Shown here in pieces: positions 1 through 5,044 of a stretch of 5,044 nucleotides of DNA. A program made the translations under genes and the position numbers. Source of the stretch: Chloroflexota bacterium (GTDB lineage: Bacteria > Chloroflexota > Limnocylindria > Limnocylindrales > CSP1-4); assembly GCA_021815005.1 (NCBI GenBank), contig JAKAHL010000174.1, positions 1 to 5,044 of the forward strand, written 5' to 3'. Within the stretch, counting starts at the first letter, position 1. Every line of letters starts with the position of its first letter. The notes under the pieces are model-generated. The model had not been told where the DNA came from, made no database searches, and worked only from the letters and a program-made list of their open reading frames with translations.

Positions 1-57
1 CTCGTGGTGGAGCCAGGCCACCTCGGCCAGGAGGTCGCGGCGGTCGTCGGGGGTCAC
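1..57 (-). CDS. N-terminus of probable SorC-family sugar-binding transcriptional regulator (partial)
   Basis: Only the first 19 codons are in the window; the gene continues past the left edge. It starts with GTG, and that codon overlaps the TGA stop of the RuBisCO-like gene in a GTGA junction, so it is the fourth gene of the minus-strand operon. The visible residues read MTPDDRRDLLAEVAWLHHE. The segment AEVAWLHHE resembles the first helix of SorC/LsrR-type regulators (for example ARIAWFYYHD in LsrR from memory), which precedes their helix-turn-helix. Such regulators bind phosphorylated sugars and often control their own operon, which suits the inverted repeat upstream of the operon's first gene. 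The family call rests on 19 residues and is an inference; that a coding region starts here is much more secure. Confidence 0.5.
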   Translation of the reverse strand, partial: MTPDDRRDLLAEVAWLHHE

Positions 58-1229
58 GCGGCGGCCCCGCCCGGAGCCCCGGCGGCCGGGCCGCTGCCGG
101 GCTCGATCGCGGCCCGCATCCGGCGGGCGTTCTCCAGCAGGTCGCCGCGCTGCAGGTCGCCGCCCACCAGCAGGGCCGTGTCGGGGCCGTAGAAGGCGTC
201 AAGCTCGGGGAGGCGCGCCAGCGTCATGCCGCCGCCCGGCGTCGGCAGGATCGGCGCGACCGCCCCGAGCGGAGCCCGGCAGGCGTCCGCGATCGACCGG
301 CAGGCGGCCCGGCTGAACGAGAACCGCCCGCCGTAGTTCGGGTACACGGTCATGTCGGCGCCGGCGAGGCGATACAGCGTGCCGAACAGCACGCCGTGCT
401 CGATCCCGTGCGCCTCCGAGAGCACGTAGGCGCCCAGAAAAGCCGGGTGGCCCATGATCGGCAGGCCGATGGCGTCGTCGTCCGCGAGCGCCCGCATGCT
501 GTCGAGACCGGTGAGCCCGGGCAGCACCAGCAGCCCGCCGGCCCCGGCATCCCGGGCGATCCTCGCCCGCTCGGCGAACTCCGGCGCGGGGCCGTTGAGC
601 GACGGCATGTACAGGGTCCGGGTGCCCAGGCGCCGGTTCGCCTCGCGCACCGACGCGGCGCACGCTCGCACGCGCTCCTCCCAGGGGGCGAAGGGCTGGT
701 TCGCGAGGCCGTGGTCGTCCTTGACGATGTCGATTCCGCCCTCGGCCATCGTCGCGGCGATCGCCGCCATGTCGTCCGCGGACAGCCCCATCGGCTTGAG
801 GGCGCTGGCGAGGATCGGCCGGCCCTCGGCGGCCAGGAGCCGGCGCAGGCCGGCGATCCCGAACCGCGGGCCGCGGAACTGCCGGAGCACCTCGGGCGGC
901 AGGTCCAGGCCGACCAGGCGCACGCCCGGGTAGAGCGAGCAGTTGCCCAGCAGCACGTTGAGGAACTGCGGGAGCTCGCCGGCAAAGGTCTCCGCGGCGT
1001 AGCTGATCCGGACGACCGAGAGCTCCGGGCCCACCGCGTCCACCGCCTCCACGCGCCCGACCACGTGGCGGCGGATGTCGTCGTCGGCCACCAGGTCCAC
1101 CGGGAACTCGATCGTCTGCTCCATCGCGATCCCCTCGGCCCGACCGCGGGCGGCGTCGTGGGGACCGGCGATGGCGTAGCGGGCGGCAAAGCGGTGGCCG
1201 CTGACCGCGAGCGACTTGGCGGGGATCAC
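54..1229 (-). CDS. RuBisCO-like protein (RLP, form IV-type), sugar-acid catabolism candidate
   Basis: A 391-residue protein of the RuBisCO large-subunit family, slightly shorter than usual for the family (about 400-430). Aligned by eye to true RuBisCO, it keeps the equivalents of E60 (E37, in AMEQT), N123 (N96, in LLGN), K175 (K145, in LKPMG), K201 (K170) and D203 (D172) in KDDHGLANQPF, H294 (H261, in GHPAF), and the glycine phosphate-binding loops (PGGGM 331-335, VGGDL 355-359). It lacks K177, has His173 in place of E204, and shows no loop-6 lysine motif, so it should not fix CO2. Known RLPs act as enolases or isomerases in methionine salvage, or as decarboxylases or transcarboxylase/hydrolases on 3-oxo-isoapionate 4-phosphate; the sugar-gene context favours the second group. 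The GTG start at 1229 forms a GTGA overlap with the upstream transketolase stop. The internal ATG at 1124 would cut off family-typical N-terminal sequence (HRFAARYAI...ARGRAEGIA) and is rejected as the start. Confidence 0.88.
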   Translation of the reverse strand: MIPAKSLAVSGHRFAARYAIAGPHDAARGRAEGIAMEQTIEFPVDLVADDDIRRHVVGRVEAVDAVGPELSVVRISYAAETFAGELPQFLNVLLGNCSLYPGVRLVGLDLPPEVLRQFRGPRFGIAGLRRLLAAEGRPILASALKPMGLSADDMAAIAATMAEGGIDIVKDDHGLANQPFAPWEERVRACAASVREANRRLGTRTLYMPSLNGPAPEFAERARIARDAGAGGLLVLPGLTGLDSMRALADDDAIGLPIMGHPAFLGAYVLSEAHGIEHGVLFGTLYRLAGADMTVYPNYGGRFSFSRAACRSIADACRAPLGAVAPILPTPGGGMTLARLPELDAFYGPDTALLVGGDLQRGDLLENARRMRAAIEPGSGPAAGAPGGAAA

Positions 1230-2242
1230 AGCGAATCGGCGTTCCTGGCGGCCGCGCCCACCGGGACGACCTCGGTGTGGGCGAGCTCCTCGGCGTCGAT
1301 GCCCAGCGGCTCGCCCACAACGCGCTCCACCGCCTGCACGATGGCGAGCGCGTCGAGCCCGTACTCGCGCATCAGGTGCGCCCGCGAGGCACCGTGCGCA
1401 TAGGTGTCGCGGAGCCCCACCCGCACGAGGCGCTGGCCGAGCCCGGCATCGGCGATCCGCTCCGCGACCGCCGACCCGAGGCCGCCGGTGACGAGGTGGT
1501 TCTCGGCGGTCACGATCCCCCGCGAGGCGCCGGCGATCGAGGCCAGCACCTCGGGGTCGTCGAACGGCTTGTGGGTGGATACGTGGAGGTGGCGCACGCC
1601 GACACCCCGCGCCTGGAGCGCCCGGACGGCCCGGAGGCCCTCCTCGGTCTCCACGCCCGCGGTGACCAGCGTGACGTCCTCGCCGGTCGAGAGGACGCGC
1701 GCCGTGTCGAGCCGCATCGGCTCGCTCCTGGGGAACAGCCTGGGCATGACGCCGCGCAGCATCCGCACGTAGACCGGGCCGTCCACGGCCTGCGCCACGT
1801 CGAGCACGCTCTCGACCTCGGTGGCGTCGCCCGTCTCGAGGACGGTCATGTTGGGCGTCGCCCGCAGGATCGCCACGTCCTCGATGGCCTGGTGGGTCAC
1901 CCCGCCGGGGGTGAGGATGCCGGGCAGGAAGCCGATCATCCGGACCCGCAGGTTGGGGTACGCCACCGACATCGCGAGCTGGTCGTAGGCGCGCCGGTAG
2001 ATGAACACCGCGAACGTGTGGATGTACGGGGTGTACCCCTCGCGCGCGAGCCCGGCCGCGAACCCCAGCATGTTCTGCTCGGCCATGCCCACCGAGAAGT
2101 AGCGGTCGGGGTAGGTGTCCCGCCACTTGCCCACCTCGGAGCTGTTGGTGAGGTCGGCCGTGACGACCACGACCTCGGGCTTGTCCTTGGCCCACGCGAT
2201 GAAGTTCTCCACGTGGGGCCGGACGACCGTCTCGAGCGTCAT
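1226..2242 (-). CDS. Transketolase, C-terminal subunit (pyrimidine-binding and C-terminal domains)
   Basis: A 338-residue protein matching the second half of transketolase, as in split two-gene transketolases. The pyrimidine-binding domain comes first. GMAEQN at 52-57 carries the glutamate (E55) that activates the thiamine diphosphate aminopyrimidine ring. It is followed by HTFAVFIYRRAYDQL near 75-89 and GGVTHQAIEDVAILRATPNM at 113-132, the conserved substrate/cofactor-side loop. The C-terminal transketolase domain runs from roughly residue 190 to the end. It should form the active enzyme with the product of the gene just upstream, because the active site lies between the two halves; together they transfer a two-carbon ketol group between sugar phosphates. 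Its ATG overlaps the TGA of the N-terminal subunit gene (ATGA), and its own TGA overlaps the GTG of the RLP gene. Split transketolases of this kind include apulose-4-phosphate transketolase (AptA/AptB), but the substrate cannot be read from sequence. Confidence 0.92.
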   Translation of the reverse strand: MTLETVVRPHVENFIAWAKDKPEVVVVTADLTNSSEVGKWRDTYPDRYFSVGMAEQNMLGFAAGLAREGYTPYIHTFAVFIYRRAYDQLAMSVAYPNLRVRMIGFLPGILTPGGVTHQAIEDVAILRATPNMTVLETGDATEVESVLDVAQAVDGPVYVRMLRGVMPRLFPRSEPMRLDTARVLSTGEDVTLVTAGVETEEGLRAVRALQARGVGVRHLHVSTHKPFDDPEVLASIAGASRGIVTAENHLVTGGLGSAVAERIADAGLGQRLVRVGLRDTYAHGASRAHLMREYGLDALAIVQAVERVVGEPLGIDAEELAHTEVVPVGAAARNADSL

Positions 2243-3168
2243 GCCGTCACCGCCTCTCGCGCCAGCGCGTCGTACGCGGCCTGGTAGCGCGCCTTCTCGT
2301 CCGGGGACTTGAAGCGCAGGGTGTGGAGCAGGGGCGCCTTCTCAGCCAGCAGCGGCACGCCGCGGGTCGGGTCCGTGAACGCGAGCACCATGTGGGGCCG
2401 TCCCGTCTCGCGCGCCGCGGCCGCGTCGAGCGCATCGAGGTCGTGGCCGTCCACCTCGTCGCAGGACCAGCCGAAGGCGCGGACGCGATCCCCGAGGTGC
2501 TCGAGGTTGCCGACCGCGCTGACCAGGCCGTCGCACTGCTGGCCGTTCACGTCCACGATGACCCGCAGGTTGTCGATGGCGTGGAACGCGGCGTTGGCGA
2601 GCGCCTCCCAGGTCTGCCCCTCCTCGAACTCCCCGTCCGACATCATGACCCAGACTCGGCCGGTGTCCCCGCGCCGGCGGCGTGCCACCGCGATGCCGGC
2701 CGCCTGGGAGAGCGCCTGGGCGAGCGACCCGGTGGTGGTCTCGATGCCGGGCGAGTGCTCGGCGCCGATCATCTCCACGGTGCTGCCGTCGCGGTTGAAG
2801 TCATCCAGCCCGGCCGGGTCCAGCCGGCCCACCTCGATCAGGGCGGCGTACAGCGCCAGAGCGTACTGCGCGGGGGAGAAGATGAACCGGTCGAGCCCGG
2901 GTCCGGGCGCCCCGTGGTAGACGGCCCCCGTGCGGTAGTCCGGGTTCGCGGGCCCGGGAACCCCGGTGAACGGCGGCGGCACGATCGGGGCGTCCACCGG
3001 CGCCAGCCGGAGCGTGCGCGTGTACAGCATGGCCAGCAACTCGGCGGCCGAGCAGGCCTGCGACAGGTAGCCCTCGCCGTGGCGGAGGACGTGCTCGAAC
3101 ACGCGCCGGCGGATCCCCGCGGCAACAGCGCGGGTCCGGTCCTGCCAGGCTGCGGACGGGTCGGACAT
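2239..3168 (-). CDS. Transketolase, N-terminal subunit (thiamine diphosphate-binding domain)
   Basis: A 309-residue protein matching the first half of transketolase. From the ATG at 3168, HSPGIETTTGSLAQALSQAAGIAVA lies at about 138-162. The metal/diphosphate-binding motif follows: SDGEFEEGQTWEA at 177-189, where SDGE replaces the usual GDGE, with VDVNGQQ at 205-211. It pairs with the C-terminal subunit encoded immediately downstream in a 4-base overlap, and is the first gene of the operon. The ATG at 3168 is preferred over an in-frame GTG at 3180 because GAGGTG sits 9 bases upstream of the ATG, while the GTG has no usable ribosome-binding site. One oddity: FSPAQYALALYAAL (97-110) has Gln101 where transketolases normally carry a histidine (SxGHxxxxLY) that contacts the cofactor. 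No other sign of decay is seen, so a functional variant is more likely than a pseudogene. Confidence 0.92.
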   Translation of the reverse strand: MSDPSAAWQDRTRAVAAGIRRRVFEHVLRHGEGYLSQACSAAELLAMLYTRTLRLAPVDAPIVPPPFTGVPGPANPDYRTGAVYHGAPGPGLDRFIFSPAQYALALYAALIEVGRLDPAGLDDFNRDGSTVEMIGAEHSPGIETTTGSLAQALSQAAGIAVARRRRGDTGRVWVMMSDGEFEEGQTWEALANAAFHAIDNLRVIVDVNGQQCDGLVSAVGNLEHLGDRVRAFGWSCDEVDGHDLDALDAAAARETGRPHMVLAFTDPTRGVPLLAEKAPLLHTLRFKSPDEKARYQAAYDALAREAVTA

Positions 3169-3216
3169 GGAGGGCGGCACCTCGACGCGGCAACCCTGTC
3201 GTCACCGCGCCCTGTA

Positions 3217-3386: not shown

Positions 3387-3797
3387 GTGGATATGGTCAT
3401 CGACTTCCCGGGCGGCGCGCGCGTCGACGCCCACTTCGGCCCGTACACGTTCCCCACGGACCAGCCCCCGTCCGGCGGCGGCACGGGCTCGGCGCCCACG
3501 CCCTTCCTGACCTTCCTGTCCACCATCGGGACGTGCGCGGGCATCTACGTCCTGGGCTTCTGCCGCCAGCGCGGCATCCCCACCGACGGGATCCGCCTCA
3601 TCCAGCGCATGGCCTCCAACCCGATGACCGGCATGGTCACCGACGTGGAGGTGACCATCGAGCTGCCCGAGACCTTCCCGGCCAAGTACGCCGACGCCGT
3701 CGTGCGCGCCGCCGAGCAGTGCGCGGTCAAGAAGCACTTCGAGCAGCCCCCCGCCATCCGCGTCGAGAGCCACATCGCGGCCTCGGCCAAGGCCTGA
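3387..3797 (+). CDS. OsmC family protein
   Basis: A 136-residue protein of the OsmC/Ohr family, the usual size for it. Members are typically cytosolic thiol peroxidases that reduce organic hydroperoxides, although the functions of many OsmC-like subgroups are unproven. The conserved thiol positions are visible: Cys50 in STIGTCAGIYV on the central helix (peroxidatic position) and Cys112 in AEQCAVKKHFEQPP (resolving position); there is a further Cys59. The CAVKKHFEQPP ending resembles the YhfA-like OsmC subgroup more than classical Ohr. GTG at 3387 is chosen because GAGGA (3374-3378) lies 8 bases upstream; the in-frame ATG at 3393 is spaced less well, and the reading frame upstream to 3312 has no family resemblance. 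It is divergent from the sugar operon and has its own putative promoter. Substrate specificity cannot be assigned. Confidence 0.88.
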   Translation: MDMVIDFPGGARVDAHFGPYTFPTDQPPSGGGTGSAPTPFLTFLSTIGTCAGIYVLGFCRQRGIPTDGIRLIQRMASNPMTGMVTDVEVTIELPETFPAKYADAVVRAAEQCAVKKHFEQPPAIRVESHIAASAKA

Positions 3798-3828
3798 CCC
3801 GACCGTCTCGCGGCGCCGGTCGCGGAGC

Positions 3829-3849
3829 CGTCGTCCAACCCGGACGACG
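3829..3849 (+). terminator. Possible hairpin terminator after the OsmC gene
   Basis: CGTCGTCC-AACCC-GGACGACG is a perfect 8-bp stem with a 5-base loop, starting 31 bases after the OsmC stop codon and ending 70 bases before the next gene. There is no following T-run, so it is not a canonical intrinsic terminator. High-GC bacteria often have hairpins without a U-tract, and it could equally be an mRNA-stabilising structure. Confidence 0.35.
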
Positions 3850-3919
3850 CGCTGCCGGCCGGCGCCGCATCATGTCCAGCGCGGGAGGCGACCCGTCCCG
3901 CGCAGGAGGCATCCCAGCC

Positions 3920-4477
3920 GTGTTCGACCAGACCGCCCGCGACGAGCTCGTGAGGGCCATCGAGGCCCACCGCGCGGAGAAGGACGAGTACTTCCGATTC
4001 GCGCCGGACAGTCCGATCGAGCCGGACGACCGCGAGGCATTCCCGGGCCTGGCCTACTTCCCCGTTGACCCGGCCTACCGATTCGAGGGACTCGAGCTGG
4101 GGCCGTACGAGGGCACCGAGCCCGAGATCTTCGGCATGCCCACCTCGACGGATGACGTCCGGCGGGCCGTGCGCGCGGGGACGTTCCGGTTCGCGCTCCG
4201 CGGGCAGCAGCTCCGACTCGTCGCGTACGACCTCGGCGGGGGCGAGCTGTTCGTGCCCTTCCTGGATGCGACGAGCGGCACCGACACGTACGGCGCCGGT
4301 CGCTACCTCGACCTCGAGTCCGAGGACGACGGCACCTACACGCTCGACTTCAACCTCGCCTACTTCCCGCTGTGCGCGTACTCGCCCTGGTACTCGTGCC
4401 CGCTCACGCCGGCGGAGAACCGCCTCGCGGTCCGGATCGAGGCGGGCGAGCGGCTGCGCGAGGCCACCGGGGGCTGA
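3920..4477 (+). CDS. DUF1684 domain-containing protein
   Basis: A 185-residue protein of the DUF1684 family, whose biochemical role I do not know. The family signature is clear. It opens with [20 protein letters not shown] (about 14-33) and [16 protein letters not shown] (41-56). After a variable middle come [25 protein letters not shown] (109-133), [35 protein letters not shown] (137-171) and an acidic tail. Cys152 and Cys160 bracket the aromatic-rich AYSPWYS. No signal peptide or membrane segment is seen, so it is probably cytosolic. GTG at 3920 is preferred because AGGAGG (3904-3909) lies 10 bases upstream. An in-frame ATG at 3872 would add 16 Gly/Ser/Ala-rich residues with no ribosome-binding site. 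It is co-oriented with the OsmC gene, 122 bases downstream, probably as a separate unit. Confidence 0.87.
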
Positions 4478-4685
4478 CGCCCGGGCCAACGCCGGGGAGG
4501 TCGGGGCAACCCCTGGCGCGGGTCCCGGAACCTCTCAAGCCGCACCCACGGCCTGGGCCGCCGTCGAGCGGCTGTCGCACAGTCCGGAAGGACCTCGCGC
4601 GATAGGCTGCGCGTACCGCACACTCGCCGGATCAACGGCCCCAGTCGGGATGCTCGATGGCGTGCGGGGCCGCCTGGAGGACACG
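4478..4685. other. Non-coding interval before the PEP carboxykinase gene
   Basis: These 208 bases separate the DUF1684 gene from the PEP carboxykinase gene and show no convincing coding frame on either strand. GATAGGCT (4601-4608) contains TAGGCT, which fits the TAnnnT -10 pattern of high-GC bacteria and lies about 80 bases before the start codon, but no matching -35 is seen at a normal distance. The promoter of the next gene probably lies here; it cannot be placed with confidence. GGGG-CAA-CCCC (4503-4513) is a short 4-bp hairpin, too weak to call a terminator. Confidence 0.5.
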
Positions 4686-5044
4686 ATGCGCAACGCGAAG
4701 CTCGACGCCTGGGTCGAGGAATCGGCCGCCCTGTGCAAGCCGGACCGCATCCACTGGTGCGACGGCTCGGCGGCCGAGCACGACGAGATGATCCGCCTCA
4801 TGGTGCATGCCGGGACGGCCGTGCCGCTCGACGACGCCAAGCGCCCGGGCAGCGTGCTCGTCCGCTCCCACCCGGCTGACGTCGCCCGCGTCGAGGACCG
4901 CACGTTCATCTGCTCGGCCCGCAAGGAGGACGCGGGCCCGACCAACAACTGGGCCGAGCCGGCCGAGATGAAGGCCACCCTCCGCGGCCTGTTCGACGGC
5001 GCCATGGCCGGCCGCACGATGTACGTGATTCCCTACTCCATGGG
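4686..5044 (+). CDS. pckG: Phosphoenolpyruvate carboxykinase (GTP), N-terminal part (partial)
   Basis: The first 119 codons of GTP-dependent PEP carboxykinase, a roughly 600-residue cytosolic enzyme that interconverts oxaloacetate and GTP with PEP, CO2 and GDP (gluconeogenesis/anaplerosis). The gene runs off the right edge. The N-terminal family signature is strong: [23 protein letters not shown] near 6-28, [30 protein letters not shown] through about 90, and [20 protein letters not shown] at the edge, matching the substrate-site region of the family (R-TMYVIPFSMGP). ATG at 4686 is favoured because GGAGG (4676-4680) lies 5 bases upstream. In-frame ATG at 4650 and GTG at 4662 are alternatives that would add 12 or 8 residues. 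It is not part of the left-hand sugar operon, although it would feed from central metabolites. Confidence 0.93.

Follow-up and report, generated by a model that had tools for sequence, protein, structure and literature searches.

A RuBisCO-like protein (RLP) and a split transketolase-like enzyme, encoded by coupled genes of a Chloroflexota bacterium, are proposed to belong to one pathway, in which the RLP would make 1-methylthio- or 1-deoxy-xylulose 5-phosphate and the coupled transketolase (TktN and TktC, together TktNC) would cleave this product between C2 and C3, a reading to which we give a probability of about 0.6. The predicted role is the breakdown of the sugar left from S-adenosylmethionine, and the route would be new. 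Known RLP-dependent methylthioadenosine (MTA) salvage has one downstream partner, a cupin, and TktNC would be a second, thiamine-dependent one, in five phyla. Such a partner would explain the disposal of these sugars in purple sulfur bacteria and in some Chloroflexota wherever MtnB, MtnD and class II aldolase were not found, and would extend the set of routes with a possible release of methanethiol, while one RLP group would gain a testable function.

Coupled genes and their neighborhood in relatives

The window, i.e. the whole stretch of DNA analyzed, is the entire contig JAKAHL010000174.1, exactly 5,044 bases long, and all of its features discussed here lie on the minus strand. TktN, the N-terminal (ThDP-binding) half of the enzyme (2239..3180; 313 aa), starts either at the GTG at 3180 or at the ATG at 3168 chosen in the preliminary description, both being equally possible, and matches PF00456 (Transketolase_N; 68.6 bits, cut-off 22) and PF13292 (DXP_synthase_N; 30.4 bits, cut-off 21.2). 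TktC, the pyrimidine-binding and C-terminal half (1226..2242; 338 aa, ATG start), matches PF02779 (Transket_pyr; 105 bits) and PF02780 (Transketolase_C; 71 bits). The RLP (54..1229; 391 aa, GTG start) was assigned by PF00016 (RuBisCO_large; 81.7 bits), by its match to 3qfw (E 2.7e-84) and by its position in a tree. Only the first 19 codons of a regulator are present (1..57; GTG start at 57), cut by the contig end, and this fragment is regarded as SorC-type because its complete relative in a sister MAG (L023), which begins TPDSRRDLLTEVAWLHHE after the start codon, matches PF04198 at 140 bits. Stop and start codons overlap in ATGA between TktN and TktC (2239..2242; 'tcat' on the plus strand) and in GTGA both between TktC and the RLP (1226..1229) and between the RLP and the regulator (54..57; 'tcac' on the plus strand in each case). 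The gene calls and the three 4-base overlaps of the preliminary description were confirmed in the sequence, and the coupled operon that it proposed, in which a transketolase of two subunits is joined to an RLP and a SorC-type regulator, is borne out by the Pfam matches and by PF04198 in L023.

Since the contig ends with the window, the extension to the left of position 1 was taken from relatives, where a SorC regulator, a class II aldolase, MtnA, an aldolase-dehydrogenase, a ribose-type ABC transporter and MtnK are found; the kinase and transporter genes previously guessed to lie there are thus present. In L023 the RLP and SorC genes are followed by those for MtnA (400.6 bits, cut-off 279), MtnK (361.8 bits, cut-off 275), aldolases and the transporter; L005 and L006 have the same order, and L004 has it up to the end of its contig. 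The MtnK-type kinase, MtnA-type isomerase and class II aldolase, before which the window ends, occur together in L005, L006 and L023, the family scores being those of L023. In the single-contig genome L051, one strand carries SBP-ATPase-permease-MtnK-MtnA-TktN-TktC-RLP, with MtnK at 475.8 bits and MtnA at 440.3 bits and no aldolase in the cluster; one class II aldolase is encoded elsewhere in that genome. The cluster in these relatives is a 5-methylthioribose/5-deoxyribose salvage cluster. It resembles the DHAP shunt, or 5-deoxyribose salvage (DrdK-DrdI-DrdA; MtnK-MtnA-Ald2), which in the part of the source consulted (PMC6079011) likewise has a sugar transporter encoded in one operon with a kinase, an isomerase and a class II aldolase. 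In contrast to that system, an RLP and a split transketolase are added, the L051 cluster is without aldolase, and no class II aldolase was found in five of six gammaproteobacterial TktN genomes.

The association between TktNC and the RLP is not due to chance, since TktN and TktC were found near the RLP in 17 of 22 loci although these were gathered by a search with the RLP alone as query. Sixteen of these 17 loci have the order TktN-TktC-RLP, which dispels the concern that it might be unique to the window genome, and L008 has RLP-TktN-TktC; a gap or an extra gene separates TktC from the RLP in five loci (L007, L012, L015, L019, L020). Concerning the other five loci, a TktN match (E<=1e-40) is absent genome-wide in L010 and L018, the RLP of L021 and L024 lies at a contig edge, and L023 and L003 are the two halves of one genome. 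The module is distributed over five phyla, and among 400 genomes a close RLP is present in 7 of the 8 with TktN versus 5 of the 392 others.

Kinship of the RLP and its genomic partners

The RLP family of the window and the 3qfw/RLP1 group are split from the MtnW-type and Photo rows with a support of 98/93, these outgroups consisting of two partial rows each on long branches (program warning), and the family is placed beside, not inside, the characterized R. palustris RLP1 clade (branch support 76/78). Motifs common to both, in their most common forms, are KDDH (711..722, minus strand, in the window), GGRF (321..332, minus strand) and (S/T)A(L/I/V)KP. MtnW-type and Photo rows read KDDE at the first of these; KDDQ is seen in some database rows of the window family, and RLP1 rows have KP-Q where most of the window family has KP-M. 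The activity of RLP1, according to the available text of PMC5893883, is that of a methylthioribulose-1-phosphate (MTRu-1P) 1,3-isomerase. Based on this kinship, the RLP is likely to be of the predicted 5-methylthioribulose-1-phosphate 1,3-isomerase type. The preliminary description had held a grouping with methionine-salvage enzymes to speak against its reading; such a grouping is found with the methylthioribulose-phosphate isomerase RLPs, beside which the protein stands, but not with the MtnW-type branch, outside which it falls.

The MTA-isoprenoid shunt of Rhodospirillum rubrum and Rhodopseudomonas palustris comprises MtnP, MtnA, a DeepYkr RLP and a cupin methylsulfurylase. Genomes with an RLP of the window family are similar in having MtnA (over its cut-off in 17 of the 17 RLP genomes searched, versus 8 of 14 controls), a sister-group RLP and, in some cases, a Rru_A2000-type cupin. 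They differ in that 19 of the 21 genomes with TktN and RLP yielded no such cupin, in that a dedicated split transketolase adjoins the RLP, and in that several lineages have a transporter and MtnK and no MtnP over its cut-off. With a query cupin chosen after its sighting beside an RLP, a methylsulfurylase-type or near cupin (E<=1e-10) was present in 7 of 8 RLP genomes without TktN versus 2 of 21 with TktN (29 RLP genomes), and counting strong cupins only the figures are 3/8 and 2/21 (p 0.11). The three are G305, G005 and G012, and the RLP-adjacent cupin of G305 has as its best match Rru_A2000 (3jzv), the MTXu-5P sulfurylase; G054 and G279 have weakly matching cupins (E 5e-17 and 7e-16, respectively), which do not adjoin the RLP. 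Cupin and TktN are both present in two Myxococcales genomes (G008, G010), and at E<=1e-10 no cupin methylsulfurylase was detected in G000 (72% complete), G416 (85%), G380 (92%), G075, identical to G002 (93%), and G001. Regarding other salvage enzymes, PF00596 gave no match in five of six gammaproteobacterial TktN genomes, so that neither MtnB nor a class II aldolase of the DHAP shunt was found there. A search for MtnD (ARD) in 29 genomes gave matches in two, none convincing, the one over the cut-off (28.7 bits over 52 of 157 positions) being taken for a generic cupin.

Active-site residues of the split transketolase

Among solved chains, the nearest are those of the split transketolase from Carboxydothermus: 6yak, its N half, for TktN, and 6yaj for TktC. 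The enzyme of Carboxydothermus hydrogenoformans shares the two-chain architecture; in contrast to it, the window family has its donor-site His and its acceptor-site Asp and His replaced, and another transketolase, a full-length one, is encoded in the genome. This gene, together with that of a full DXS (684 bits, L088), rules out that the pair is the sole housekeeping transketolase. In TktN residues 136-145, EMIGAEHSPG (2746..2775, minus strand), M137 is placed by the sequence alignment at H100 of E. coli, the His of 'GHP' in the donor site, and this position is Met in 15, Leu in six and Arg in one of the 22 TktN, whereas His is found in 13 of 13 transketolase rows (11 distinct genes) and in the split ChTK, and Phe in one DXS row. 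In TktC residues 104-118, GFLPGILTPGGVTHQ (1889..1933, minus strand), where transketolases have 'THDSIGLGEDGPTHQ', Leu takes the position of E. coli H461 and Gly that of D469. Both original residues are gone in all 22 TktC, while every one retains an Arg at the position of R520; none of the 22 TktN and 22 TktC, therefore, has the donor-site His or acceptor-site Asp of an ordinary transketolase. D469 is in contact with a hydroxyl of the kind present in glyceraldehyde 3-phosphate, so that with its loss a DXS-like site for this compound is absent, a point against the proposed reading. Neither half reaches the cut-off of a DXS model: TktC scores 163.6 of 466 bits (TIGR00204), and TktN has 19.9 of the 510 bits required by a DXS subfamily model. 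As reported in the accessible parts of two studies, H100L or H100F alone raises the activity of transketolase with pyruvate (PMC7661550), and an E. coli variant carrying H100L, D469T and four more changes also uses pyruvate (PMC10787763). In the proposed reading, TktN would represent a transketolase whose donor pocket carries Met/Leu in nature, comparable to engineered changes for donors devoid of the C1-hydroxyl.

The proposed route and its alternatives

We hypothesize that in the window lineage the ribose-type ABC transporter imports the sugar, MtnK would add phosphate at C1, and MtnA would yield the 1-phospho-ketose. The RLP, shifting the carbonyl to the opposite end as in its characterized kin, would isomerize 5-methylthioribulose 1-phosphate or 5-deoxyribulose 1-phosphate to 1-methylthio- or 1-deoxy-xylulose 5-phosphate. 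The product would have the skeleton of D-xylulose 5-phosphate, the normal transketolase donor, with CH3 or CH2-SCH3 replacing CH2-OH, and the replacement of the C1-OH-binding His by Met/Leu in TktN fits such a donor. That the transketolase would act on the ketose phosphate formed by the RLP, as the preliminary description suggested, is retained here as a hypothesis. Cleavage by TktNC, in the place of the cupin methylsulfurylase of the R. rubrum shunt, would leave a two-carbon adduct on ThDP besides glyceraldehyde 3-phosphate, and this adduct may be released as an aldehyde or, with the methylthio substrate, resolved by losing methanethiol; the SorC protein is likely to sense a sugar phosphate of the pathway. 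Phosphoketolase and sulfoacetaldehyde acetyltransferase are ThDP enzymes whose two-carbon adduct loses a beta leaving group, and a methanethiol-releasing TktNC is likened to them by reaction logic. More tentatively, and with the odds rather against it, TktNC may convert 1-methylthio-xylulose 5-phosphate to glyceraldehyde 3-phosphate and an adduct that expels CH3SH by a phosphoketolase-like beta-elimination, leaving an acetyl group, and thereby replace the cupin in an oxygen-independent third way to methionine sulfur. In the window lineage, RLP and TktNC may not be the only outlet, since the class II aldolase of the same operon could in principle consume the RLP substrate.

The same enzymes could instead act on ribose or on the ribose 1-phosphate of nucleosides, with ribulose 1-phosphate formed by the MtnK/MtnA-type enzymes, xylulose 5-phosphate by the RLP, and an ordinary two-carbon transfer by TktNC. 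The chemistry would be identical with OH for SCH3, the transporter is of the ribose type, and the L023 class II aldolase scores 131 bits on the ribulose-1-phosphate aldolase model (cut-off 300). Nevertheless, this substrate is unlikely given the loss of the donor-site His in all 22 TktN and of the acceptor-site Asp in all 22 TktC, the scores of MtnK and MtnA over curated methylthioribose kinase and isomerase cut-offs, and the strong cupins of the type whose known substrate bears a methylthio group in G305, G005 and G012, all without TktN.

Somewhat less probable still is a synthetic TktNC, a two-part DXP synthase or acyloin synthase with pyruvate as donor, next to an RLP that is a separate salvage enzyme sharing the operon. 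Met/Leu at the H100 position and the DXP_synthase_N and DXS model scores given above favor it, but a full DXS is already encoded, TktC has neither the Arg of the DXS rows in the H461 region nor the Asp, and TktNC co-occurs with the RLP across genomes, the cupin pattern tying it to the RLP product. We find it improbable that TktNC directly cleaves the 1-phospho-ketose of MtnA, before or beside the RLP, as in 5-deoxyadenosine salvage of M. jannaschii, for which the part of PMC8102628 consulted suggests promiscuous transketolase cleavage of 5-deoxyribulose 1-phosphate: the donor C1 would bear a phosphate ill-suited to the Met/Leu pocket, and the tracking of the RLP by TktNC (7/8 versus 5/392 genomes) and their coupling would be left unexplained.

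AptA/AptB is the split transketolase of the apiose route, and the apiose/apionate or sugar-acid setting favored in the preliminary description would pair an enzyme of this type with an OiaX/OiaT-type RLP. RLPs do occur in apiose pathways, according to the portion of PMC6302742 available, but this setting is highly improbable and at odds with the salvage gene set of the relatives (MtnK, MtnA, aldolases, ribose-type transporter), beside whose operon no apiose-pathway gene was recognized in those read, with a score of 82.2 bits (cut-off 700) on the OiaX NCBIfam model, and with the tree position beside RLP1; the NCBIfam matches of the window proteins included no model named for AptA/AptB. Equally remote is a role of the RLP as the MtnW-type enolase in aerobic universal methionine salvage, which the similarity to NF007095 (228 bits, cut-off 409) and TIGR03332 (175 bits, cut-off 513.6) might suggest, as the RLP has KDDH instead of KDDE and lies outside that branch, no convincing MtnD was seen in the 29 genomes, and seven gammaproteobacterial RLP genomes gave no PF00596 match and thus no MtnB. 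One further RLP of the window family (L118) lies in an FGGY-kinase sugar cluster and calls for another explanation.

Gene order in the window and at related loci

The window is the complete contig (C151, 5,044 bp) of G000, a 2.05-Mb metagenome-assembled genome (MAG) that is 72% complete. On its minus strand, gene calls place the N half of a split transketolase-like enzyme (TktN, 2239-3180) ahead of the C half (TktC, 1226-2242), the RuBisCO-like protein (RLP, 54-1229, with a GTG start at 1229) and a regulator gene cut off by the contig end after 19 codons (1-57), and all three junctions are 4-base overlaps, as the preliminary description had observed. The GTG start is natural because the sequence upstream of the inner ATG encodes the RLP N-terminus and can be aligned, from residue 11, with the solved protein 3qfw. 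Profile matches to OsmC (3387-3797), DUF1684 (3872-4477) and the start of a GTP-type PEP carboxykinase gene (from 4686) lie on the plus strand and diverge from the operon (3387-5044), with the same neighbors in L003, a contig of a sister MAG.

A search of 84,980 species genomes with the window RLP returned 22 loci, from hosts that include Chloroflexota, Chromatiaceae, Achromatium, a Planctomycetota MAG, Ornithinimicrobium, an Actinomycetales MAG and Myxococcales. The query was the RLP alone, and TktN and TktC were found close to it at 17 of the 22 loci, so that the gene order is conserved outside this genome. Among 400 Chloroflexota genomes, TktN (E<=1e-50) is present in 8 and an RLP match (E<=1e-40) in 17, 12 of them close by a line of E<=1e-100 set post hoc from the match list; TktN and a close RLP occur together in 7 (Fisher p = 2e-11; 6e-7 if the family of the window enters as a single case).

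The sister MAG is represented by two contigs, L003 and L023 (identities over the available parts of 94% for TktN, 98% for TktC and 95-99% for the RLP). L023 begins within the RLP, which is followed by genes for a SorC regulator, a class II aldolase of 232 aa, MtnA, an aldolase-dehydrogenase of 666 aa, a ribose-type ABC transporter and MtnK, an order repeated in L005 and L006, each on a single contig, and in L004 up to the contig end. The kinase and transporter genes anticipated to the left of position 1 are thus found in relatives, and the regulator is of the SorC type, as its complete gene there matches PF04198. MtnA (400.6 bits, cut-off 279) and MtnK (361.8 bits, cut-off 275) score above their thresholds, and the aldolase-dehydrogenase falls slightly below that of the RhaD-type model (529 bits, cut-off 568). 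Pfam assigns the 232-aa protein to the class II aldolases (147.8 bits, cut-off 22.2), and it scores higher against the FucA-type model (139 bits, cut-off 264) than against MtnB (59.5 bits, cut-off 137). The same set of kinase, isomerase, aldolase and transporter has been described for 5-deoxyribose salvage (PMC6079011), and the relatives' operon adds to it the RLP and the split transketolase. The regulator also differs from that of the E. coli DHAP-shunt operon, which is reported to be controlled by the DeoR-family repressor MtnR (PMC12632272). A general replacement of the aldolase was rejected as an explanation because the window's lineage possesses both the aldolase and the RLP with its transketolase pair (TktNC).

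In L051, a single-contig genome, one strand carries SBP-ATPase-permease-MtnK-MtnA-TktN-TktC-RLP followed by an SBP-like gene and a SorC gene; no aldolase is found inside this cluster, the one class II aldolase of the genome being located elsewhere. Another genome (L045/L022) combines transporter, MtnK, MtnA, microcompartment shell genes and a class II aldolase with TktN-TktC-RLP, and this locus is possibly a 5-deoxypentose microcompartment; it has EutN/CcmL and BMC shell genes and an acylating-family acetaldehyde dehydrogenase (564 bits, cut-off 620), with the aldolase upstream (L022:3977-11119 and L045). Immediately upstream of TktN in L011 is an LsrF gene (L011:61-942; 455 bits, cut-off 297; phospho-autoinducer-2 thiolase family), and a similar gene was noted by eye directly upstream of TktN-TktC-RLP in L017 (L017:1-894); the L050 cluster also contains an LsrF-like gene (40%). 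The L011 and L017 genomes hold an MtnA-transporter-MtnK cluster on a separate contig. In Ornithinimicrobium, a second, N-terminally incomplete RLP reading (L013:12861-13679, also L037:1-594; 47% identity) lies about 1.8 kb past the intact RLP.

Relationships of the RLP

The best solved relative of the window RLP by phmmer is 3qfw (286.6 bits), ahead of MtnW-type chains (4nas, 2oek, 2oej, 2zvi and 3fk4; 142-185 bits) and of the Photo RLPs 1tel, 1ykw and 2qyg (118-129 bits). The 3qfw protein, from Rhodopseudomonas palustris, shares 64% identity with another R. palustris cluster, and one of its relatives is named S-methyl-5-thioribulose 1-phosphate isomerase. R. palustris RLP1 is reported to be the 5-methylthioribulose 1-phosphate 1,3-isomerase (PMC5893883), and we infer that 3qfw is of this type. 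A tree of 53 rows places the 14 rows of the RLP1 group in a clade (100/100) and all 35 rows of the window's family to the same side of a branch with 76/78 support. The two sets jointly are separated at 98/93 from the MtnW-type and Photo rows, two of each; the branches to these outgroups drew a length warning from the program. The motifs KDDH, GGRF and (S/T)A(L/I/V)KP are common to the window's family and the RLP1 group, while MtnW-type and Photo rows have KDDE.

The apiose or apionate setting raised in the preliminary description was rejected because the OiaX score, the tree and the neighboring genes all speak against it. An MtnW enolase identity was rejected on the KDDH motif, the tree position and the lack of a convincing MtnD among the 29 RLP genomes. 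MtnA is above its cut-off in 17/17 RLP genomes and MtnP in 18/29; the 11 below comprise G000, four family relatives, three actinobacterial genomes, one planctomycete and two genomes that narrowly miss the cut-off of 275 bits with 261-263 bits. Six genomes with no MtnP above cut-off (G001, G002, G416, G007, G011 and G017) hold MtnK and at least a partial transporter. O-acetylhomoserine sulfhydrylase exceeds its cut-off in 25/29 RLP genomes, but also in 9/14 controls. No PF00596 match was found in five of six gammaproteobacterial TktN genomes (G003, G004, G006, G009 and G014, assemblies of unstated completeness), the sixth, G013, having one.

Active site of the split transketolase

TktNC is not the housekeeping transketolase, since G000 has a separate full-length enzyme (697 aa, L085:1273-3366; 866.6 bits, cut-off 682) as well as a DXS (L088:2012-4138; 684 bits, cut-off 466), and because of the latter, supply of DXP for isoprenoids is less likely as its main role. 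Part of a further split-type C half, unlike TktC, was seen by eye on another contig of this genome (L089:2-859, contig C53).

The column of the donor-site histidine, H100 in E. coli transketolase and residue 137 in TktN, holds Met in 15, Leu in 6 and Arg in 1 of the 22 TktN, the Met and Leu residues lying within E(M/L)IGAEHSPG in all 21 cases. This column is His in 13/13 transketolase rows (11 distinct genes) and in the split ChTK, and Phe in the single DXS row. DXS is reported to have Phe at this position, and H100F and H100L substitutions to raise transketolase activity with pyruvate, a donor without a C1-hydroxyl (PMC7661550). In all 22 TktC the segment of H461 and D469 (E. coli numbering) is replaced by GFLPGI(x)(T/S)-(P/A)GG followed by a conserved TH, and the equivalent of R520 is retained. 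Pyruvate is reported to be used by an E. coli transketolase variant that combines H100L and D469T with four further substitutions (PMC10787763); TktNC therefore differs from ordinary transketolase at both the H100 and the D469 position. The loss of Asp in TktC fits a changed second half-reaction, yet it also means that the DXS way of holding glyceraldehyde 3-phosphate is missing, which we count as unexplained.

The Arg-137 pair (L052:8160-10120) occurs in a genome with no RLP match at E<=1e-40, and is perhaps a sister enzyme with another specificity.

A putative route and its cupin-bearing counterpart

The sequences show the parts of the module, their order, kinship and co-occurrence. The operon appears to be a new branch on a pathway of known type, in which one enzyme step is predicted. 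Either MtnK with a transporter or MtnP would, together with MtnA, yield 5-methylthio- or 5-deoxy-ribulose 1-phosphate, which the RLP would convert to a 1-substituted xylulose 5-phosphate; we keep, as putative, the earlier proposal that the transketolase uses what the RLP makes, here by cleaving it. If the substrate is a 5-deoxy sugar, cleavage would release its two-carbon part as acetaldehyde. The acetaldehyde dehydrogenase at the microcompartment locus agrees with this, although the class II aldolase there may be an alternative source. With a methylthio substrate, TktNC may release methanethiol, which is chemically reasonable because the thiomethyl group would sit beta to the carbanion of the ThDP adduct. 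No report of such a route was found in a search mostly outside subscription journals; the nearest found in print is a promiscuous transketolase elongating 5-deoxyribose, together with a suggested transketolase cleavage of 5-deoxyribulose 1-phosphate (PMC8102628).

Three Chloroflexota genomes have an RLP of this kind and no TktN, and in each a cupin gene abuts the RLP (RLP identity 39-40% in L120, 49-54% in L116 and L119). The L120 cupin matches Rru_A2000 (3jzv) at E 6.7e-44, and Rru_A2000 is reported to act in R. rubrum after the RLP Rru_A1998 as the MTXu-5P sulfurylase (PMC4958253); the cupins of L116 and L119 are nearest to 3ibm, then to 3jzv and 3kgz. Among the 29 RLP genomes, which are not independent, a cupin (E<=1e-10) occurs in 7/8 without TktN versus 2/21 with it (p = 1.7e-4, for a query selected after the cupin had been noticed beside the RLP); the exceptions are G201, with neither, and G008 and G010, with both. 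The figures become 5/8 versus 2/21 for strong or RLP-adjacent cupins (p = 0.008) and 3/8 versus 2/21 for strong ones only (p = 0.11). Chromatiaceae divide cleanly in this respect: a strong cupin without any TktN match occurs in Thiobaca and Thiodictyon, and TktN without any cupin match in Thiocystis, Marichromatium and Halochromatium. The Thiobaca RLP groups with that of Thiocystis (97/85) despite this difference.

Two small cupins near these clusters (L041:12602-12985 and L024:2537-3004), 41% identical to one another, were rejected as methylsulfurylases, with no match to the Rru_A2000-type query at E 1e-4. In Thiobaca (L010:4705-9847) the RLP faces genes resembling, by eye, a corrinoid protein and a corrinoid methyltransferase. 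A DJ-1/PfpI-like gene, also identified by eye, adjoins the RLP in three Chloroflexota genomes (L115:3508-4032, L117:8585-9109 and L049:12703-13233). At L118:100-5969 an RLP of the window's family, with neither transketolase nor cupin, lies among an FGGY-type kinase, a dehydrogenase and two sugar permeases (by eye), a cluster that perhaps serves another sugar.
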